Positions 1-36,000 of a stretch of 36,000 bases of DNA are shown here, in pieces. Position 1 is the stretch's first letter. Each line of letters starts with the position of its first letter. Source of the stretch: a virus; IMG/VR virus record IMGVR_UViG_3300009703_000052, positions 1 through 36,000 of that record, one strand, 5' to 3'. The notes under the pieces are model-generated. The model saw nothing but the letters and a program-made list of their open reading frames with translations. It made no database searches and was not told the DNA's origin. The translations under genes were made by a program, and so were the position numbers.

Positions 1-2
1 TG

Positions 3-83
3 GAAGCTCCACAAGAAGTTGTGATTTTTAAACAGCGTAGAACACGCAGTTGTAACGATGACAAACAAAACGAACCGGAATAA
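3..83 (+). CDS. C-terminal fragment of a small protein cut by the window edge
   Basis: The frame is open from base 3 and ends with TAA at 81-83, giving the last 26 codons of a gene whose start lies outside the left edge. The residues APQEVVIFKQRR recall the last strand of CsrA-like small beta proteins, but this is too short to name. If base 36000 is joined to base 1, the split codon becomes ATG and the frame runs straight on from the partial gene at 35928, giving a protein of about 51 residues. A rho-independent terminator and the tail gene at 220 follow. Real coding is likely from position and frame; the function is a guess. Confidence 0.5.
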   Translation, partial: EAPQEVVIFKQRRTRSCNDDKQNEPE

Positions 84-166
84 ATCGTAAAAATGGTTGC
101 CATCGCTTGATGAATAAGAACAATTATTAGCGTAGTTGAACTACAACAACCGAACATTACCTGTCG

Positions 167-204
167 AACGGGCTATCTCTTAACGAGGTCGCCCGTTTTT
201 TTTT
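167..204 (+). terminator. Rho-independent terminator
   Basis: AACGGGC (167-173) pairs perfectly with GCCCGTT (191-197) around a 17-nt loop and is followed by a run of T up to 204. It lies just before the Shine-Dalgarno of the gene at 220, so it would end or attenuate transcription from the early genes before the tail-spike and terminase block. Confidence 0.75.
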
Positions 205-219
205 GAATTGGGAGAACCT

Positions 220-663
220 ATGAGCGGCACAACTGACCGTGGCAAATACCTATTACTTAAATATGCGTTCGACGGAGAAACTGTCCCGACCACCTACCGC
301 CTCATTCTTTGCACCGACGATGATACGCCTACCAAAGCAAGTAACACGTTGGCGGACGTCACCGAGATAGCCTCTGGTTCAGGTTACGATTCCGGTGGAA
401 AGGCACTCGCGACGTCAGATGCGACTGTTACAGAAGTTGACGGTACGATCGGTGCGAAAGTTGTGTACAGCGATCAAACTTGGTCTGCCACTGGTACGTT
501 TCCGTCGAGCGGCACAGGTGCGCGATGGGCTGTTATCACGGACGGCACGACCTCTACGGATAATATCTTGGCTTATTTTAGCCTCGGGAGTAATCAGACT
601 CTCACGGACGGACAATCACTTACGCTTCAATCTGTAGAAATAGATTGCAACGAACCGAGTTAG
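220..663 (+). CDS. Putative phage tail/virion protein, 147 aa
   Basis: The product is Ser/Thr/Gly/Asp-rich with alternating short hydrophobic stretches, as expected for a beta-rich virion protein. Its opening (KYLLLKYAFDGETVPTTYRL) is followed by a Thr/Ala-rich middle and an ordered C-terminus, a pattern seen in small tail-fibre-associated proteins. ATG 220 is chosen over an upstream TTG (208) because GGAG at 211-214 sits five bases before it. It is the first of four plus-strand genes ending in the terminase, and its stop overlaps the Shine-Dalgarno of the next gene. No domain is recognised; the tail role is inferred from composition and from the neighbouring beta-helix protein. Confidence 0.6.
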   Translation: MSGTTDRGKYLLLKYAFDGETVPTTYRLILCTDDDTPTKASNTLADVTEIASGSGYDSGGKALATSDATVTEVDGTIGAKVVYSDQTWSATGTFPSSGTGARWAVITDGTTSTDNILAYFSLGSNQTLTDGQSLTLQSVEIDCNEPS

Positions 664-671
664 GAGTTGCC

Positions 672-1445
672 GTGGAGCTTCTACTTAAGGTTGGTGATAG
701 TGAATCACACGCAGGGTATAGAGATGGAGATATCGTCTGCGCTTTTGCGACGGATCACATCCTGAAGGTTAATGCGCAGACGCTGATGTCTGCGCCGGTC
801 ATATTAGATTCAGTGTCCGGCCTCAATCCGTCGGGAACACTTCTCGAACTAGTGTGTGAGATCTCTAGTGAGTTTAGGTTCGTTCGCGAAGCGGACACCG
901 TGACGCGGACGAGCCTGGCCACTGGTGAGCAGACAGTTCACGACGCCACTACGCCTGAGTCGATTCATGTAGATGCGTTTTTAAAACGTCGACTAAAACA
1001 TCCTCGCCATAGAATCTTTGGTGATACAGGAAGCGAATATTGGTTCGGCGGTACACGCGAGTTTTCAGCTGCGGATATATGGTCTGTATTAGAGCAGCAC
1101 TCTGATCACGTCCGCGAGGATTACCGGCAGTGGCCGTTTACGTGTGCGGAGCGATCGCATTTTCTTCCAATCTCCTGTGCGGGATACGGCGGGCATGAGG
1201 ATGATATTTCGCATCCCACCGCCCAACAACGATGTGCGCCGGTCACCGAAGATACCGGAACGCCAGAACCGATTGATATCGCGAAGCGTGAATGGTTTGT
1301 TCCGTACTGGGATCTCTCAAATACTCTCAACCTCACGGTCGACGATGTCCGCGATAACCAGCAGATTATCGATGCAAGGCTGATGCAAGGGAGTCCGGCT
1401 TTAGATAGCACAAACATTAGCAAAGTCGCAAACGGTCTGATTTAA
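672..1445 (+). CDS. Phage protein of unknown function upstream of the tail spike, 257 aa
   Basis: A GTG start at 672 is supported by TAGGAG at 661-666, which overlaps the previous stop. The N-terminus (ELLLKVGDSESHAGYRDGD) is a pattern I remember from planctomycete prophage proteins found near terminase genes, but I cannot attach a function. The central part has WFGGTREF and a Trp/Arg-rich stretch, and the C-terminus is hydrophilic. There is no signal peptide or membrane segment. It lies two bases before the beta-helix gene and is probably co-transcribed and virion-associated. Codon phase and tight spacing make it a confident gene. Confidence 0.6.
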   Translation: MELLLKVGDSESHAGYRDGDIVCAFATDHILKVNAQTLMSAPVILDSVSGLNPSGTLLELVCEISSEFRFVREADTVTRTSLATGEQTVHDATTPESIHVDAFLKRRLKHPRHRIFGDTGSEYWFGGTREFSAADIWSVLEQHSDHVREDYRQWPFTCAERSHFLPISCAGYGGHEDDISHPTAQQRCAPVTEDTGTPEPIDIAKREWFVPYWDLSNTLNLTVDDVRDNQQIIDARLMQGSPALDSTNISKVANGLI

Positions 1446-1447
1446 AA

Positions 1448-3589
1448 ATGGCAACTGTCACTACAAGCATTGGAACTAATAGCTCGCTTGGCACGTCAAC
1501 GCCCAGCGGTTGCAGCGGCTCTGGACCGTGGGATGTCACAATTTCACTTAGCCCACACAATGTGAGCGTCGGTGACACCGCAAAAATTACGGATTATACT
1601 CTAGGTGATTTTTACTACTTAATCACAGCCATTTCAGGCACTACCTGGACCTTTAAGTACATCAGCGGGGGAATGGGATCGACCAGTCCTTGTACGCTTG
1701 TTGATATGTCGTATGGTCAGGCCAGCGCCACTTTCCAGCGTACTTACAGCACGATAGGTGCATGGGAAAGTGACCTCGACGACACCAGTTATTATTCGTC
1801 CAGCGATGATGCCGTCGGTGAAGCGTACAACGACTCCGTCTTCGATGAATACATAGTCATCGACGGGGGCGGCACGGTTGGGCTGTCTTCCGTAACATTA
1901 ACTGCGCCTTCATCGCAGCGGCATGATGGCAAGGCTGGCACTGGTACGCGGATTGAATACACAGGCAACGAGGGCAGTTCATTTCGCATCAAGCGAAGTC
2001 AGTGTACCGTCGAGTGGTTGGAACTCGATCTTACTAGCACCGGCTCATCGGTGGCGGCAGGAGTGAACTTTGGAGCAAATTCAACGCAAGACGTTTACTG
2101 CCGAAATAATATAATTCATGGCCTCACGACCCAAAGTACGCATATTCACGGCGTCTACGTTTGGGGGACAGGTAACTCATCAAATACTCGTTATTTTATG
2201 AATAATATCCTGTACAACATTGACAACTCGTCCACGACAAAAGAAGCGTCTGGCATAACGGTATCGTCGGGCAACTGGGGAGTCTATCTCTACAACAACA
2301 CCGTCTATTACGTGAAAGCTACCGGAAGTGGCGACCAAGCGCTTTGCTTCAGTATTCACGATACCGATACTTTTCTCAAAAATAATATTGCTGCACGGGC
2401 AGATGCGGCAAGTGCTTCAAATGAAAAGTGCTTCGGTGAATCTGGCTTCTCTGGATCTACTCATGACTACAACCTATCAACAGATTCTACTGCGACGGGA
2501 ACAAACTCGTTAACAGGCGAGGACTATGAAGATCTGTTTGTCTCGGTCACAGGCGGCACAGAAGATCTGCACCTAGAGGAAGGTGCGGCTGCTATCGATG
2601 CGGGTGTGGATCTAGGCACATCTCCGACGAACGTCAACATCGATATCGACGGATTTGACCGGGACACAGTGGCGTCGTGGGACATCGGGGCTGACGAGTA
2701 TGTTTCAAGTGCAATCAATATCACCCCAGCCTCGGCTGAGTGCGTATTCGCAGCGGATCTCACGGTAACGATTGCAAAGTTCGTCACACCCGATGCCGCA
2801 GCATGCGTGTTGGCCGCTGTTATTGACAATGTTGGTAAAGCTATTGCACCAGACGCCGCAGCATGTGTATTTGCCGCGGATCTCACCGTCACGATTGATA
2901 AGGTCGTTACACCCGATGCCGCAGCATGTGTATTCACATCAAGCCTTACAGTCACGGTCGATAAGGTAGTCTCACCTGACGCAGCAATCGCTGACTTAGC
3001 CGCAGTCGATCCAACCGTCTTTATTGAAAAGTTCGTTACACCCGATGCCGCAGCATGCGTGTTGGCCGCTGTTATTGATAATGTTGATAAAGGTATTGCA
3101 CCAGACGCCGCTGAGTGTGTATTTGCCGCGAGCGTGACAGTCACGGTTGAGAAGGTCGTTACACCAGACGTCGCTGAATGTGTATTTTCCGCGGATCTCA
3201 CAGTAACGATTGAGAAGTTCGTTACACCCGATGCCGCAGTTGCTGATTTATCCGCAGTCGATCCAACCGTCTCGATCACGGGTGGCGGAACGACAGTGTC
3301 ACCCGCCTCCGCAGTGGCTACTCTGGCTGCACCCGATCCGACCACATTTATTGATACGGTACTCACAGCCACAGCATCCTTCAACTTGGCTGCTCAGTCT
3401 CCGACCGTTGTGGTGAGTGGTAACACAACGATTACGCCATCAGCAGCTACCGTTCTTCTCGGAGCATCGCTTGGGGGACTCAACCCGCCCGGCTTAATCT
3501 ACGTCAGCGATCCACAAATCAACGCACCATTTGTCAGCGGTGCACAAATCGATGTCCCGAATATATTCAAGCCACGAATTGAGAGGTAA
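1448..3589 (+). CDS. Tail spike-like protein: parallel beta-helix plus about twelve short repeats, 713 aa
   Basis: Residues 1-110 are a small beta-rich head. Residues about 130-415 carry Asn/Gly-rich rungs (YCRNNIIHG, FMNNILYNI, YLYNNTVYY) and end in DGFDRDTVASWDIGADEY, typical of right-handed parallel beta-helix proteins of the pectate-lyase superfold. Residues about 420-680 are some twelve repeats of 20-23 aa with the core PDAAxCVFAADLTVTI. The C-terminus (LIYVSDPQINAPFVSGAQI) is a short Pro/Val segment. Beta-helix spikes bind or cut host polysaccharide; no catalytic residues can be assigned. The repeat DNA contains a near-identical 252-bp duplication. It lies in the terminase operon, far from the tape-measure module. 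Confidence 0.75.
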   Translation: MATVTTSIGTNSSLGTSTPSGCSGSGPWDVTISLSPHNVSVGDTAKITDYTLGDFYYLITAISGTTWTFKYISGGMGSTSPCTLVDMSYGQASATFQRTYSTIGAWESDLDDTSYYSSSDDAVGEAYNDSVFDEYIVIDGGGTVGLSSVTLTAPSSQRHDGKAGTGTRIEYTGNEGSSFRIKRSQCTVEWLELDLTSTGSSVAAGVNFGANSTQDVYCRNNIIHGLTTQSTHIHGVYVWGTGNSSNTRYFMNNILYNIDNSSTTKEASGITVSSGNWGVYLYNNTVYYVKATGSGDQALCFSIHDTDTFLKNNIAARADAASASNEKCFGESGFSGSTHDYNLSTDSTATGTNSLTGEDYEDLFVSVTGGTEDLHLEEGAAAIDAGVDLGTSPTNVNIDIDGFDRDTVASWDIGADEYVSSAINITPASAECVFAADLTVTIAKFVTPDAAACVLAAVIDNVGKAIAPDAAACVFAADLTVTIDKVVTPDAAACVFTSSLTVTVDKVVSPDAAIADLAAVDPTVFIEKFVTPDAAACVLAAVIDNVDKGIAPDAAECVFAASVTVTVEKVVTPDVAECVFSADLTVTIEKFVTPDAAVADLSAVDPTVSITGGGTTVSPASAVATLAAPDPTTFIDTVLTATASFNLAAQSPTVVVSGNTTITPSAATVLLGASLGGLNPPGLIYVSDPQINAPFVSGAQIDVPNIFKPRIER
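2713..3473 (+). repeat. Coding tandem repeats in the spike gene (20-23 codons each, about 12 units)
   Basis: Units alternate between the types PDAAACVFAADLTVTI, PDAAACVLAAVIDNV and PDAAIADLAAVDPTV. The order of unit types recurs: the stretch beginning near 2779 matches the one beginning near 3031 with a 252-bp offset (four units) and only scattered differences. This indicates recent duplication of a multi-unit block on top of older single-unit repeats. Confidence 0.8.
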
Positions 3590-3592
3590 ACC

Positions 3593-4225
3593 ATGTCAAC
3601 CGCATTGAAAAATTCGTCTGGGGAATACATCACGATTCAAAGTGGTGAGTCATGTAATCTGACCGGCACGCTCAAGAGCACCGAGAGCGAAACAGTTAGC
3701 AGTGTGAGCTCACTAACAATCACGCTCTACGATAAAGCCAGTGGCACTATCATAAACAGCAGAAACAGTCAAAACGTGAATAACGTGAACGGAGGTACAT
3801 TCTCAGCAGGGGTGTACACAATCGAGCTCGATGGTGCGGATACTGAAGCAGTCGGTGAGGTTGCAGACGGCAGCAGCCAGGAACGGATTGCTCGGATCGA
3901 GTGGGGTTATAGCGACGGCGATTCGACACGCACTGGAATCGAAGAATTCAGTTTTTTAGTTCACAAGATGGTCACTGCGATAGGGGTAGGCACAGGGGCA
4001 AATCAAATAACGCTAACAGTAACGGATACCTCATCAAATCCAGTTGCGGAAGCAACAGTTCATGTCAGTACCGACCTTGCTGGTCAACAGATAGTGGCTG
4101 GCCCAGTCTTTACAAATGTCTCTGGCGTGACGCCCACGCTCTTTTTGGACACAGGCACATATTATTCGTGGAGCTCACACACAGACTATAGCTTTACGAA
4201 TCCGAGTAAATTTACAGTTAGCTAG
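3593..4225 (+). CDS. Putative tail/virion protein with C-terminal Ig-like (carboxypeptidase regulatory-like) domain, 210 aa
   Basis: ATG 3593 has GAGAGG eleven bases upstream. Residues 1-125 form a domain (LTGTLKSTESETVSSVSSL, SAGVYTIELDGADTE) resembling baseplate or receptor-binding N-terminal sandwich domains. Residues 130-210 (ITLTVTDTSSNPVAEATVHV, then FLDTGTYY) match the pattern of a carboxypeptidase regulatory-like/transthyretin-type beta sandwich, common in phage adhesion proteins. It starts four bases after the spike gene and ends with TAG in the same frame as the terminase. It probably decorates the spike or tail tip; the fold is inferred from pattern only. Confidence 0.6.
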   Translation: MSTALKNSSGEYITIQSGESCNLTGTLKSTESETVSSVSSLTITLYDKASGTIINSRNSQNVNNVNGGTFSAGVYTIELDGADTEAVGEVADGSSQERIARIEWGYSDGDSTRTGIEEFSFLVHKMVTAIGVGTGANQITLTVTDTSSNPVAEATVHVSTDLAGQQIVAGPVFTNVSGVTPTLFLDTGTYYSWSSHTDYSFTNPSKFTVS

Positions 4226-6666: not shown

Positions 6667-6738
6667 CTGACTGGTTTGCTGACTGGTTTGCTGACTGGTT
6701 TGCTGACTGGTTTGCTGACTGGTTTGCTGGCTGGTTTG
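6667..6738. repeat. Tandem repeat, 12 bp x 6 (CTGACTGGTTTG)
   Basis: Five exact copies of CTGACTGGTTTG are followed by a sixth with one change (CTGGCTGGTTTG), immediately after the terminator of the rightward arm. It lies outside any credible gene. The function is unknown: a replication-slippage tract or protein-binding iterons are both possible. Confidence 0.9.
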
Positions 6739-7190
6739 CTGGCCACTCTAAGTGACTCTCTGATCGTAAACCCCTGTAAACTAAGGCTTTAACGTGTGTA
6801 CCGTTCCGGCCACTGCACGCCCAAGAGCCACTGGTGCATAAATAAAGTCTTCGGTACAGTCTACTTCTTCGCGGCGGGCTCACGGTCGAGGGAGCAAAGA
6901 GTACCTGTGACCCCCCCTGATGGGGGGGTAGTGCCTATTTGGCAGCATGCAACCCGATAGGGGGGGGTGAAAATAGGGTAAATGTGGTCATAATGATGAC
7001 AAAATGGGCATAAAATCGCGTTTAAAATATCCCATGAGAAGCCCGTACAAGCCGGTATGCGCGTGTTTGCGAGAATGGCATTAGGGGTAGGCTGAATAGA
7101 AAAGCGCGCGAGAAGCTCGCCGGGGGGCTCTGATTAGATAATGGTAAATACGTGCTTTAAAAATAATCCCGCCTATTTTGGTAGGCGCAT
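6739..7190. other. Convergent intergenic region without genes, with G/C-tract hairpins
   Basis: About 450 bases between the ends of the two arms show no credible coding frame. They hold a perfect C7-TGAT-G7 inverted repeat (6911-6928), a G8 tract (6960-6967), and an inverted repeat CGCCTA/TAGGCG (7170-7187) next to the leftward terminator. A packaging (pac/cos) or replication site would be reasonable here, close to the terminase, but nothing in the sequence proves it. Confidence 0.5.
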
Positions 7191-8107: not shown

Positions 8108-8121
8108 CAGGCTATTTAGCT

Positions 8122-28056: not shown

Positions 28057-29556
28057 TTATCCTAATAATCGTTGAGTTTCAATCGCGAGATTTATATCCT
28101 GACGCATCTTTGAGTAATGCGTGACCATAGAGTCTGTTAAATGCCCCATCACAGCCTGAGCCGCCGAACGACTCGCGTTTGCGACCAAATTGGCCGAGTA
28201 AAAATGCCTGATGGCACTGGGGAAAAAGTCAGGAATGGAAAAGTGGTTCAGCACATCATACAAGTCAGTGCGATAGGCCTTCGTATCGTACCTATCCATG
28301 ACGGTCGTGTGTTTCTCGTAGATCTCTCGCACGCTGCGAACCGGCAACGGTTCTAGAATTCCTGCGCGTATCAATGTGTATTCGCAGCGTTCGCCGGTCT
28401 TCTCCCGACACCGCGTCCTCTTAATTTGAAAAGCTCTATCTCTCAACTGCTTGATTGCAGCGCCTCGCTTTCGGCTGTCAACGATCACATCATCTAGCGA
28501 TATCTGCTGGCCAAGATGCTGTTCCAGACGCGCGGCTACTAGTCGGGCATTACGAAGTTTATCGTCCTGCGGTTTCGCAAAACTCAGTCGATACGCTTCT
28601 GCGACGCGGCGGCTAAATACAAAGCCGCTGTCTGCGGTAATCATTTCGTCGCGATGTTTTTTCAGTGCCTCCACGCTGTGTGGGCCAAGGACGCTAATCA
28701 GCGTAAGGTGCTTCTCTGTTTTGTGCGAACTAGGTCGATAGATCCAAACTCCGTGCTCATCCTCATCAGTTGTATCAATATCTTCCCACCGCATGTTGCA
28801 GATGTTACCAGGTCGAAGTCCCGTGTGCATTTGCACGGTAAGCATCGTCGCGAGAACCGGCGGTGAGAGTTTAATCGCTTCAAGTAGATCCGCTTCATCT
28901 GGTGCGTGTACGACTGTGCTCGCTGGTACGTCATGGTCAAAGTTGCCCAGCGGTTTCAGCGAGTTGATTGCTAGAAATACGTGATCGGGGAATATCGCTT
29001 CCTCCGCCCCCCACGAAAACATACGTTTGAGCACACTAATCTTTTCATTGATCGTTTTGCGGCAGTTGCCGGTCATGTCAATCTCAATTTGTCGAGCACG
29101 CTTGAGGTCGGCAAGAGTGAATTCTGCGGCAGCTTTTTCTGCAAACGGCATCAACATCAAACATGCGCGGCGAAGCAGCGTGATCTGCGCGCGGTCTGCT
29201 TTAGACTCATCAGGTAAGCCATGCCTGCGGCGTTTATCGTGCCATGTGCGATATTGCTCTACCAGATCAACTACTCGAAAACTCTGTTCTTGTGGCTGAT
29301 GCGCGGGCATCTGTGAATTAGTCACCACCGGCGGGGAAGCCACCTGCTCAATGCCAAGCTCAATGCGTAGTTGCTGTAAGTCATCGTACATCTCGCGGCT
29401 AAAAGGATCGCCATCTAAATAAACAAACGGGTAACTCTCGTTACCGCTTTCATCCACCATCTTTGGCCGGACGTAAGGTCGACCAGAGTCGGCCTTGACT
29501 TTGACATTGAGCTTCTTACCTGCAAATGTTTTGCCGAGAATCTGTTTACGAATCAT
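28057..29556 (-). CDS. int: Tyrosine-family integrase, 499 aa
   Basis: Catalyses site-specific recombination between attP and the bacterial attachment site. A core-binding domain (ARQIEIDMTGNCRKTINEKI) precedes the catalytic domain. Box I Arg lies in TGLRPGNICNMRWEDID and the beta-hairpin Lys in HKTEKHLTLISVLGP. Box II reads PSAIRHFYSANL, with Arg kept but Ser in place of the usual first His, followed by MGHLTDSM and the Tyr nucleophile in VTHYSK. A 70-residue insert before box II is like planctomycete integrases I remember. ATG 29556 has AAGGTG upstream. Terminator at 27939-27970; tRNA-like att fragment upstream. Confidence 0.9.
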   Translation of the reverse strand: MIRKQILGKTFAGKKLNVKVKADSGRPYVRPKMVDESGNESYPFVYLDGDPFSREMYDDLQQLRIELGIEQVASPPVVTNSQMPAHQPQEQSFRVVDLVEQYRTWHDKRRRHGLPDESKADRAQITLLRRACLMLMPFAEKAAAEFTLADLKRARQIEIDMTGNCRKTINEKISVLKRMFSWGAEEAIFPDHVFLAINSLKPLGNFDHDVPASTVVHAPDEADLLEAIKLSPPVLATMLTVQMHTGLRPGNICNMRWEDIDTTDEDEHGVWIYRPSSHKTEKHLTLISVLGPHSVEALKKHRDEMITADSGFVFSRRVAEAYRLSFAKPQDDKLRNARLVAARLEQHLGQQISLDDVIVDSRKRGAAIKQLRDRAFQIKRTRCREKTGERCEYTLIRAGILEPLPVRSVREIYEKHTTVMDRYDTKAYRTDLYDVLNHFSIPDFFPSAIRHFYSANLVANASRSAAQAVMGHLTDSMVTHYSKMRQDINLAIETQRLLG

Positions 29557-29650
29557 GATATGCACCTTCTATAGTTGAACGCGCGTAAAAGCGCGGAAAC
29601 CAGAGTATACAGGCCTAATTCGTCCACGCAAGCAAAAACTGTTTAAATAA

Positions 29651-29667: not shown

Positions 29668-29756
29668 AAATAGATCAGTAAAAACGTCAGCCCCGTGGCT
29701 GAAAATGCCTGTTTTTAGAGTGTTTAAGCACGCTGAGAGATGCGTGTGTATGAGAC

Positions 29757-29797
29757 GGTTATGAGCCTCGCGAGCTACCGGGCTGCTCCACCCCGCG
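29757..29797 (-). other. 5' half of a tRNA-fMet gene; probable attP core
   Basis: Read leftward, these 41 bases match the 5' half of initiator tRNA-Met (start CGCGGGGTGGAGCAGC, end GGCTCATAACC through the CAU anticodon); I count 37 of 41 identical to E. coli tRNA-fMet from memory. The match stops in the 3' strand of the anticodon stem and no T-arm or 3' half follows before int. The true host tRNA would be expected to restore the anticodon stem after recombination. An exact TATAAT lies 18 bases upstream. Location beside int supports an attachment site. Confidence 0.75.
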
Positions 29798-29815
29798 ATG
29801 TTGTTTCGTTCGGTA

Positions 29816-29821
29816 ATTATA
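29816..29821 (-). promoter_or_regulatory. TATAAT box upstream of the tRNA-fMet half
   Basis: Leftward TATAAT at 29821-29816, 18 bases before tRNA nucleotide 1. The -35 region is poor (CTAGCA/TAGCAA). It could supply transcription to a tRNA gene rebuilt by integration. Confidence 0.5.
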
Positions 29822-29946: not shown

Positions 29947-29966
29947 TTCAAAAACGAGGAGTGAAA

Positions 29967-30227
29967 TCACCCCTCAGCCCCGCGGCTGTCACGGACGTGC
30001 TTACTGAGCCTGTGTTCAAGCAAGCTCTCCCTGATCGCAGTTGTGAAACTTTGAACACGCCGCATCCCTTCAACAAAGTTGCGGTGGTTCGCAACCGGGA
30101 GCTCCTCGATCTGGAGTGTCTCTAATTCTTCCACGCCCAATTTGAGATCGACGAGCATCTTCTCTAGCTCGACACACGCCTCACGAAACGCTTGGATCTC
30201 AAGAGTCGTTAAGTTCTTCTGAGGCAT
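29967..30227 (-). CDS. Unknown small helical protein at the regulator position, 86 aa
   Basis: ATG 30227 with AAAGG upstream. The product is mostly helical (LTTLEIQAFREACVELEKML, VDLKLGVEELETLQIEELP) and ends basic (EHRLSKHVRDSRG). It is transcribed divergently from the excisionase-like gene, where a lysogeny repressor would be expected, yet I see no clear helix-turn-helix. It may be a novel repressor, an antirepressor or a coiled-coil accessory. Confidence 0.6.
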   Translation of the reverse strand: MPQKNLTTLEIQAFREACVELEKMLVDLKLGVEELETLQIEELPVANHRNFVEGMRRVQSFTTAIRESLLEHRLSKHVRDSRGAEG

Positions 30228-30246
30228 CGCAACGGCCTTTCCTTTA

Positions 30247-30275
30247 TATACACCAATGTTGATGTGTGTAATCAA
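30247..30275 (-). promoter_or_regulatory. Leftward promoter of the 29967-30227/int unit
   Basis: On the minus strand TTGATT (30275-30270), 17-bp spacer, TGTATA (30252-30247). An imperfect inverted repeat ACACCAATgttgATGTGTGT (30250-30269) fills the spacer, repeating the operator-in-spacer design seen elsewhere here. Confidence 0.6.
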
Positions 30276-30362
30276 AACTATACCTATTTGCACCAATTAC
30301 CACCACATCTCTGTGTGACCAAATCCCCATATTTAACTAATTTCGGGATTTATTTCTGTAAA

Positions 30363-30709: not shown

Positions 30710-31039
30710 ATGCAACAATCATTATTTACAGAACCGCATACATTATCACGGGCTTCTGATCCAGACACGAGCAAAGAAGCTGCGTCAGAGATATCATCCG
30801 TCGGCACAGTAGCAAACTTAGAGCTTCTTGCACTGAATCTCATAATGCTGCATCCGGGCAAAACAGCACGGCAGCTTGAAGACATTGCCGATCTGGAACG
30901 CTGCACGCTACAGCGACGCATCTCATCGCTTTTGCAAAAAGGGCTGGTCGTGCGGGGCGAGAAAGCAACAAACGACAATGGTCGCACTGCATACACATTG
31001 TATTTACCAACAGCCTTCAACAAAAGGAAGCCACGATGA
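30710..31039 (+). CDS. Winged-helix phage protein, 109 aa
   Basis: SRASDPDTSKEAASEISSVG, then NLIMLHPGKTARQLEDIADL and LQRRISSLLQKGLVVRGEK follow the MarR-like pattern of a small phage winged-helix family (helix-turn-helix with RRISxLxxxGLV). Probably DNA-binding, of unknown role in early regulation or replication. ATG overlaps with the next gene by four bases. Confidence 0.65.
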   Translation: MQQSLFTEPHTLSRASDPDTSKEAASEISSVGTVANLELLALNLIMLHPGKTARQLEDIADLERCTLQRRISSLLQKGLVVRGEKATNDNGRTAYTLYLPTAFNKRKPR

Positions 31040-31296
31040 CTGTTTATAAATTTGAAAATCGCGAAGAAGCACTCCAGTTCTGCAAGGAAACCGACGGCGA
31101 CAAGGCGCTGCTGGAACGAAATGGCGAAGTGTTTGTTCGCGTCGAGGATGGCAAAGACGATTCGGAAGCACCCGTCGTGAAAATCGAAGCGGACGATGAG
31201 CTTGAGGAAGACGAGCCTCAGGAAGACGAGCCTCAGGAAGACGAGCCTCAGGAAGACGAGAATGACGCGAGCGAAGAAGAAAACAACGACGACTGA
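31036..31296 (+). CDS. Acidic protein with EDEPQ repeats, 86 aa
   Basis: The N-terminal half is an ordinary small domain (YKFENREEALQFCKETDGD, then NGEVFVRVEDG). The C-terminal third is almost wholly acidic with three exact EDEPQ repeats and an EENNDD tail. The acidity could mimic DNA or bind a basic partner. Start shares ATGA with the previous gene. Function unknown. Confidence 0.6.
   Translation: MTVYKFENREEALQFCKETDGDKALLERNGEVFVRVEDGKDDSEAPVVKIEADDELEEDEPQEDEPQEDEPQEDENDASEEENNDD
31207..31260 (+). repeat. 15-bp tandem repeat GAAGACGAGCCTCAG x 3.6 (coding)
   Basis: Three exact copies and a partial one, identical at DNA level and so recently expanded, encode EDEPQ inside the acidic protein gene. 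A unit length divisible by three keeps the frame. Confidence 0.85.
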
Positions 31297-34436: not shown

Positions 34437-35375
34437 ATGCAGAAATTAGTTTCCGAGAAACGGGGCAAAAATACCAGAAATAGACTGATTACTGTCGGAG
34501 AGTTGTTTGCTGGTATTGGCGGAATCGGACTGGGTCTGGAGATGACCGGCGGATTCGAGGTTAAGTGGCAAGTCGAGATCGACGAATATGCGTCACAGGT
34601 GTTAACCAAGCATTGGCCAGATGTAACCCGCTGGGATGACGTCTGCACGTTTCCTCCGGCAGATGGCGACTGGACGGTAGATATGATCACGGCGGGCTTT
34701 CCGTGCCAAGATTTATCTTTCGCAGGTAAGGGCGGTGGATTAGAAGGGGAACGAAGTGGATTGTTTTATGAAGTTGTGCGAATTGCATCAAGACTCAGAC
34801 CACGATACTTGTTATTGGAGAACGTCGCAGCGCTCCTTGTTCGGGGGCTGGGAGACGTTCTCAGAGCGTTGGCCGAGATCGGGTATGATGCGGAATGGCA
34901 CTGCTTATCTGCTGCCACCGTTGCCGGCGCGCCCCACATCAGAGACAGGATTTTCATACTGGCTTACCCCAACGGCAACAGAAATTTACCCTTCCTCAGA
35001 TCGGCGGGAGAAACGGGCGGCGTACAGGAAGTCAATTGGTCGGAAGGATGTTCCAGGGTGTTTGTCGGAACAGGTCAGCCACAGGGAGTTTTGGCCGACA
35101 CCGAGAGCGAGCGAGTACAAGGATTGCGGACCACTGGGGAGCAAATCCTACCGCCATATGTTAGACCGTCATTACCTTTGCGCGAAAGCCCAGGAAGCGG
35201 AGAACACTTCTGGGAAATTGAACCCAAGGTTCGTCGAGTGGTTGATGGGCTTTCCGCAGGGGTGGACAGAGCTAAACGAATCAAAGGATTAGGTAACGCA
35301 GTCGTACCACAGGTAACCCAGTTCATCGGAAACCAAATTCTAGAAAGACTCAAGGATGATAGTGCTAGAAGATAA
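34437..35375 (+). CDS. DNA (cytosine-5) methyltransferase, 312 aa
   Basis: All key C5-MTase motifs are present: motif I ELFAGIGGIGLGLE (about 22-35), catalytic PCQ (Cys90) in GFPCQDLS, ENV 128-130, motif VIII-like APHIRDRIFILAYP, and C-terminal RVVDGLSAGVDRAKRIKGLG, then GNAVVPQ. The recognition domain is short. Likely protects phage DNA from restriction. ATG 34437 has GGGGGTGG upstream. Much of its second half (34756-35292) is also open in the +1 frame with its own protein-like sequence. Overlaps the next gene by 20 bases. Confidence 0.92.
   Translation: MQKLVSEKRGKNTRNRLITVGELFAGIGGIGLGLEMTGGFEVKWQVEIDEYASQVLTKHWPDVTRWDDVCTFPPADGDWTVDMITAGFPCQDLSFAGKGGGLEGERSGLFYEVVRIASRLRPRYLLLENVAALLVRGLGDVLRALAEIGYDAEWHCLSAATVAGAPHIRDRIFILAYPNGNRNLPFLRSAGETGGVQEVNWSEGCSRVFVGTGQPQGVLADTESERVQGLRTTGEQILPPYVRPSLPLRESPGSGEHFWEIEPKVRRVVDGLSAGVDRAKRIKGLGNAVVPQVTQFIGNQILERLKDDSARR
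34756..35292 (+). CDS. Overlapping frame inside the methyltransferase gene, possible 178-aa protein
   Basis: The second frame has motifs (WPRSGMMRNGTAYLLPPL, WLTPTATEIYPSS, WPTPRASEYKDCG, NPRFVEWLMGFPQGWTEL) that I remember from annotated phage proteins linked to cytosine methyltransferases. In DNA these coincide with methyltransferase motifs VIII to X read in the other frame. So the two readings are locked together. No strong start signal is visible (ATG 34756 has only a weak context). It could be a true overprinted gene or a widely annotated shadow frame. Confidence 0.4.
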   Translation: MDCFMKLCELHQDSDHDTCYWRTSQRSLFGGWETFSERWPRSGMMRNGTAYLLPPLPARPTSETGFSYWLTPTATEIYPSSDRREKRAAYRKSIGRKDVPGCLSEQVSHREFWPTPRASEYKDCGPLGSKSYRHMLDRHYLCAKAQEAENTSGKLNPRFVEWLMGFPQGWTELNESKD

Positions 35376-35937
35376 AGAGGTCGTAATCATTACACCACCG
35401 CGAACCGGATCGTTAATGCTACACGAGCTCTTATGTAAACGCAGACACTCGTATTGGATTGAATCGACTGACAAAAACCGGCACACGATAACGATTCCAA
35501 ATGACTTTAAGCGATTCCGGCAGATGCTGCTGGTGCGAAACCCTTATCCGAGACTGCTCGGGTTGAGAGACGAACTGAATGAACATTTGGCGATCCGGCA
35601 AAAAAGGCCGTTGTCGTTGCCTGAGTACATCGATCGTCGGCATCAATTCAAAATGCGTCATTCGACGCTGATAACTACATGGGTGGATGAGATTGAAGCC
35701 TGTGCACTCTTACATCTCGAAACGCTCAAGCAGGATTTGGCAGAGCATCTCGACATAAACGTCAGCGTGCCAAGACTAGATTCTGACAAGCAGCGGGATT
35801 GGTTGAACGAATTTAAACAAGTTGATTACGAGCGGCTGGCCGTTTTATATACGGAGCTCGTGCCCGACCTAGTATATGGTTATTACCACAGTGCGATTAC
35901 ACCTGTTAAAGCGAGGGCCTGGTCCCCGTGCCTTTGA
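35356..35937 (+). CDS. Sulfotransferase-like protein, 193 aa
   Basis: TPPRTGSLMLHELL at residues 13-26 fits the 5'-phosphosulfate loop of PAPS-dependent sulfotransferases, and LLVRNPYPRLLGLRDEL (58-74) fits their 3'-phosphate-binding strand-helix (VRNPxxRLxSLxxE). C-terminal DWLNEFKQVDYERLAVLYTE also matches the family's end. It would transfer sulfate to an unknown acceptor, perhaps host polysaccharide or a virion component. Phage carriage of such a gene is unusual. Short for the family. Overlaps the methyltransferase by 20 bases. Confidence 0.6.
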   Translation: MIVLEDKEVVIITPPRTGSLMLHELLCKRRHSYWIESTDKNRHTITIPNDFKRFRQMLLVRNPYPRLLGLRDELNEHLAIRQKRPLSLPEYIDRRHQFKMRHSTLITTWVDEIEACALLHLETLKQDLAEHLDINVSVPRLDSDKQRDWLNEFKQVDYERLAVLYTELVPDLVYGYYHSAITPVKARAWSPCL

Positions 35938-36000
35938 AGCTCCGTTTAAAATCCGGTGACCGGCTGATTCTTGGGTCTGCATATTTAGAGGTAGAAAAAA
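35928..36000 (+). CDS. N-terminal part of a small CsrA/FlbT-like protein, cut by the window edge
   Basis: From GTG 35928: PLKLRLKSGDRLILGSAYLE, then VEK at the edge. LxLxxGDRLILG is the opening of CsrA-like or FlbT-like small beta proteins that bind mRNA, though only 24 codons are visible. It overlaps the sulfotransferase end. Its frame fits the gene fragment at base 3 if the ends are joined. Start and identity are tentative. Confidence 0.45.
   Translation, partial: MPLKLRLKSGDRLILGSAYLEVEK

Follow-up and report, generated by a model that had tools for sequence, protein, structure and literature searches.

Islands that supply a tRNA gene with a new 5' part, displacing the 5' fragment of the host, amount to 159 of 3,919 in the available text of the Islander paper (PMC4383910), where an anticodon-centred crossover is common for this class and the class itself is given as counts. 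In archaea, the integrases of the pTN3-like plasmids and viruses also use a tRNA 5' half, and the promoter of the integrase gene drives the tRNA afterwards, something that the available sections of the review concerned (PMC8371274) describe as seldom met in bacteria, where integration leaves reconstituted tRNA genes under their own earlier promoter with very few exceptions. The pTN3-like integrases are suicidal: their att is located within int, and the gene is cut by integration. Among protein-coding targets, the partial text of PMC4482086 describes dusA islands and prophages of proteobacteria that replace the 5' end of their target gene, with promoter-like sites seen both before integration and after it.

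The locus studied here lies in a 36,000-base virus record (hereafter the window, i.e., the whole stretch of DNA analysed) and combines the 5' half of a tRNA-fMet with the gene of a tyrosine integrase (int). Like the 5'-fragment islands, the element would carry in a tRNA 5' part and displace that of the host, and like the dusA elements it would replace the 5' end of its target; it differs in that tRNA-fMet is the gene targeted and in that an entire clade of phage integrases is fixed on this gene. It resembles the pTN3-like elements in the proposed exchange of promoters, but it is not a member of that group as the available text defines it: its int gene stays whole, 191 nt past the core, and an initiator tRNA is targeted. 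The sequence-only reading of this DNA had presented the carriage of a 5' half as unusual. The rarity stands with the Islander counts, but the mode is less unprecedented than was implied, since both the 5'-fragment class and the archaeal promoter swap have been published, as far as the accessible parts of these papers go. Thus, the mode is already known but rare, and what is notable here is the initiator target and the fixation across the clade: in a group of integrases spanning ~25% identity, all members with a readable att region carry the 5' half. A literature search, with most subscription papers outside its reach, found no report of 5'-half integration at an initiator tRNA.

The half tRNA-fMet and its host gene

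The genes of the window include those for a terminase, a portal, head and tape-measure proteins, RecT and a resolvase. Tandem repeats are found at 6667-6741 and 8121-8183 (period 12 each), at 31191-31260 (period 15/30, inside the ORF 31036-31296) and at 2744-3272 (period 63/252, inside the ORF 1448-3589).

The minus strand reads, from 29797 to 29757, CGCGGGGTGGAGCAGCCCGGTAGCTCGCGAGGCTCATAACC, which comprises in order the 5' strand of the acceptor stem, the D arm, the 5' strand of the anticodon stem (CGAGG), the loop CTCATAA and CC. The tRNA-fMet match therefore takes in the first two bases of the 3' strand of the anticodon stem and ends there. The bases past CATAACC are unrelated to the tRNA 3' half, and thus this is not an ordinary 3'-half attP. 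ARAGORN found no complete tRNA in the window, and no Rfam family was matched in it. The earlier reading had recognized the 5' half of tRNA-fMet upstream of int, broken off in the anticodon stem, and this is confirmed by the exact match to planctomycete genes on the minus strand, a strand which had been left unstated; its figure of 37/41 to the E. coli gene agrees with the 90.2% over 41 nt shared with a Salmonella tRNA-Met. The half tRNA is not a chance occurrence, since shuffling the sister locus 100 times never yielded a match at ≤3 mismatches, and the exact 41-mer recurs in eight other viral contigs as well as in at least 117 stretches of genome sequence.

As for these genome stretches, 74 of the 80 listed genome titles are planctomycetes by name, and the att sites link otherwise hostless viral contigs to this phylum. 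Among the matches listed (L021-L137), 113 of 117 continue as tRNA-fMet, three run off the contig and one is a phage half (L086). In the 113 genes the break is followed by TCGAGG or a close variant and then by the tRNA 3' half; host genes completing the CGAGG/CCTCG stem had been expected at this point, and indeed TCG follows the break. The full tRNA-fMet gene (≤1 mismatch) is present in one copy per genome in the three genomes examined. Initiator-tRNA genes are in general essential, as this one presumably is to the host.

We consider it very probable that the site is an attP: a temperate phage infecting planctomycetes would use its tyrosine integrase to recombine with the host tRNA-fMet gene at the anticodon loop (Table 1). 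Strand exchange would take place inside CTCATAACC. The host promoter and the host 5' half would be displaced, as a broken fragment, to the int-side end of the prophage, while at the other end the phage leader with its TATAAT and the phage 5' half would join the host 3' half into a complete tRNA-fMet, to be transcribed from the phage promoter. Excision would restore the host gene. This mode would mirror the usual 3'-half integration, in which the target retains its own promoter. An in-silico exchange after CTCATAACC gave a tRNA-Met on the phage-leader side in 6/6 cases and none on the int side, an outcome that is expected because the halves are identical.

Table 1. Features around the putative attP, in window coordinates
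Feature	Position	Strand	Remarks
5' half (nt 1-41) of tRNA-fMet, putative attP core	29757..29797	minus	exact match to planctomycete tRNA-fMet genes
CTCATAACC, probable strand-exchange region (anticodon loop + CC)	29757..29765	minus	common to both half types
TATAAT, candidate -10 box for the rebuilt tRNA-fMet	29816..29821	minus	6/6 match, gap 18
Left-arm repeats, three TTTGCACAA	29917..29949	minus	offsets -148, -138, -128 from tRNA nt 1
Right-arm repeat pair TTGTGCAATTTGCACAA	29651..29667	minus	TTTGCACAA at +138
Tyrosine integrase	28057..29565	minus	PF00589 E 8.6e-11; PHROG integrase E 2e-22
TATACT, possible int -10 box	29604..29609	minus	kept in L002 within an otherwise diverged stretch
Terminator-like hairpin between tRNA half and int	29687..29702	minus	consensus scan only
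Terminator-like hairpin upstream of tRNA half	29955..29976	minus	consensus scan only
Small conserved ORF (MPQKN[L/M]T...) adjoining the putative attP	29967..30296	minus	similar ORF in relatives

The integrase and its recurrence beside the half tRNA

The integrase has 502 aa when read from GTG or 499 aa from the ATG at 29556, which is the more likely start, and thus begins 232 nt (GTG) or 241 nt (ATG) downstream of tRNA nt 1, outside the core. It shares 94% identity with that of the sister contig L002 and 25-32% with those of the other half-tRNA phages. In an unrooted maximum-likelihood tree of 38 rows, the nine half-tRNA phage integrases are grouped apart (100/100) from 29 integrases of planctomycete genomes, 27 of the latter taken from the best profile hits and two from fMet-linked loci (3/30 loci had no usable ORF). 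Residues R251, K282, R453, H475 and Y484, which we take to be those of the R...HxxR...Y motif, are invariant in the alignment of the nine proteins. The first His of HxxR (residue 450) is kept in seven of them and is Ser in the window and L002, a point against the attP model.

A possible promoter of its own and a terminator-like hairpin, whose stem carries a change in L002, intervene between the half and int, and so the idea that the host fMet promoter might drive int after integration was dropped. On the other side of the half, the small conserved ORF ends 149-197 nt upstream of it and is kept in L002, L004, L005, L008, L009, L010 and L086. It had no Pfam or PHROG match; as a guess, it could be a candidate excisionase or directionality factor.

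An exact scan of viral contigs found the identical 41-mer in eight contigs besides the window (L003 and L002 are one contig), with no full tRNA at any of these eight loci. The break point lies in all of them within 0-10 nt of that of the window, and the match to the host consensus goes past the 41-mer by ≤3 bases in seven and by 10 in L006. An integrase of 426-523 aa adjoins the half in 8/8 contigs. With the exception of L006, int is encoded on the strand of the half and starts 148-242 nt past tRNA nt 1; in L006 int is upstream and divergent and no arm words are shared, which speaks against the attP model. A profile search of viral contigs with the integrase returned 10 loci, i.e., the eight contigs plus L017 and L020, in which the match starts so close to the beginning of the contig (4 and 22 bases) that the att region is unreadable. 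Related integrases at a different site had been named as the observation that would tell against this target; none was found, and the 8/8 clade contigs with a readable att have the same half. Among cultured phages the integrase had no tblastn match; 222 cultured-phage records match the 41-mer, and the nine examined among the 60 matches listed are all full tRNA-Met genes.

The half could act instead as an RNA, as a tRNA-half decoy or as the leader of the int mRNA, rather than as a recombination site, and the promoter-like box and the terminator-like hairpin after the half would make a short RNA from the free phage possible. Nevertheless, the half constantly adjoins diverse integrases, is surrounded by co-varying arm repeats and breaks where the 3'-half islands described below cross over, three hallmarks of att sites, and we regard an RNA role as the most remote of the explanations considered and the attP as the preferred one.

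Arm repeats, the free phage and the candidate promoter

The repeats flanking the half co-vary on both arms in three sister pairs (window/L002, L004/L009 and L007/L008). In place of TTTGCACAA, L002 has GTGCACA at -147, -137, -127, +131 and +139; GTACATC in L004 and GTACAAC in L009 occupy five exactly identical offsets; L007 has GTACACAAA at -150, +137 and +158, and L008 has GTACGCAAA at -150, -139, +138 and +159. This concerted change fits integrase arm-type sites that track a change in the protein, and in this respect the repeats behave like such sites. Against the attP model, the repeats of the L005/L010/L086 group are changed in the left arm only. A further pair of words around the half, GAGAC/GTCTC, was dropped, as it is absent from L008.

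L086 and L010 are 98.6% alike over 3.5 kb and sharply different in the ~150 nt just upstream of the half, as though an exchange had affected the leader together with the left arm.

An attL would also resemble a displaced 5' half beside int, and the fragment might then be host DNA at a prophage edge that was captured by assembly. However, the window and its sister are circularly permuted: window positions 35295-36000 correspond to L002 4346-3641 and positions 1-3612 to L002 3613-1, so that the end and the start of the window are neighbours inside L002, which points to a permuted free phage and not to a prophage edge. In their longest alignment block the two genomes are 94% identical, while the half sits in an unbroken run of 210 identical positions (columns 78-287), and the 126 nt directly upstream of the half are identical. 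In addition, the upstream side is phage DNA in eight loci, with the same small ORF. A prophage edge is thus very improbable, and the attP of a free phage remains our reading.

No lysogen of the integrase clade was found among ~1,000 genomes sampled, and the prophages with this integrase at tRNA-fMet that the sequence-only reading proposed to look for were not among them; this absence is weak evidence, because the sample holds one genome per species, often metagenome-assembled, and prophages are easily lost. A scan of genome contigs with the integrase alignment gave no lysogen either. The integrase profile, which recovered 5/5 viral records as a control, detected at 1e-20 generic recombinases in 184 of 397 genomes (best 7.6e-41) and nothing in the genomes at 1e-60. 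A pattern for the half only (next base not T), which misses halves like those of L006, L007 and L008, had its sole genome match in G001, the genome containing L086. This locus was rejected as a host junction, being a phage contig near L010 in a Pirellulales MAG. When 13 window proteins and nine clade integrases were compared by tblastn with the 117 listed fMet loci, the phage L086 was found; the remaining matches were a weak tape-measure match in L088 and distant integrases in L118, L070, L123 and, weakly, L031.

With regard to the promoter, the exact TATAAT that had been claimed 18 bases before nucleotide 1 does stand there, on the minus strand from 29821 to 29816. A box of ≥5/6 matches to TATAAT at a gap of 15-22 occurs in four of six phage representatives (shuffle mean 0.55; 0/2000 shuffles reach 4), and on the host side such a box, at a gap of 8-30, precedes 31 of the 113 genes for which 60 nt upstream could be read, vs 4 when shuffled. 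Scored with a matrix of host leaders, the last 10 nt before the tRNA rank among roughly the best 10% of the positions nearby in 7/7 phage loci, two close relatives being included in the seven. No -35 box was recognisable at the window site, and no site had both hexamers; L007 lacks a good -10, and those of L004/L009 lie 29 or 36 nt upstream, which speaks against promoter supply. Judging from these leader sequences, we consider it likely that the phage leader supplies a promoter that would replace that of the host.

The missing -35 boxes and the leader of L007 would also be compatible with an attP at tRNA-fMet whose promoter is irrelevant, the rebuilt gene being weak or silent or a second host initiator gene being present, and the 41 nt serving as the integrase core only. 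Against this, the match extends exactly to nt 1, far past any 7-bp exchange region, the -10 box and the leader are enriched with respect to shuffles or neighbouring positions, and the three genomes have a single full gene copy. We therefore consider this explanation improbable and maintain an attP that brings its own promoter. A bolder proposal, which we put forward as a doubtful one, is that the integrating phages take over the transcription of the only initiator tRNA of the host, so that a prophage could set or switch its supply and translation initiation, with fixation across the clade. If this were true, a lysogen would need either an undamaged prophage end or exact excision. Should a lysogen be found, the takeover by a prophage of the promoter of an essential RNA gene would become directly testable.

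Other elements at tRNA-fMet genes

The planctomycete tRNA-fMet gene looks like an integration hotspot. In G381 (C10:157500-184500) a full fMet gene is followed by int, and the 3' half, starting from CTCATAACC, is found again 10.9 kb away, with a shorter copy carrying one change 13.5 kb beyond this first recurrence. In Adhaeretor mobilis HG15A2 (G314:C1:3122900-3184400) a 3' fragment starting from GGCTCATAACC lies 58 kb from the gene. Both elements look like ordinary 3'-half islands. They share with the window the target gene, an identity that starts at (GG)CTCATAACC and a distantly related downstream integrase of the same kind; in contrast to it, they bring the 3' half, the host promoter stays, and their integrases fall outside the 5'-half group, that of G381 being 23-27% identical to the phage integrases and placed elsewhere in the tree. 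The only sequence that the 5'-half phages and the 3'-half islands have in common is CTCATAACC, with GG preceding it in one case, and if the two modes share a single crossover point, it would fall in the anticodon loop. Such mirror-image elements, with the same crossover and host phylum, offer a natural comparison for the factors that determine whether an element carries the 5' or the 3' half.

A general scan of viral contigs for fMet 5' halves gave at least 117 new loci; of the 117 listed, 115 continue as tRNA, L264 runs off the contig and L216 is a half. In L216, an unrelated viral contig (minus strand, near base 7050) the 5' half of another tRNA-fMet lies 267 nt before an integrase-like ORF. 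This arrangement is like that of the window, but the half has the stem TCAGG, which points to another host, and the ORF has a marginal similarity to the clade (best E 5.6e-4). Judging by L216, the architecture of half tRNA plus integrase may have arisen more than once.
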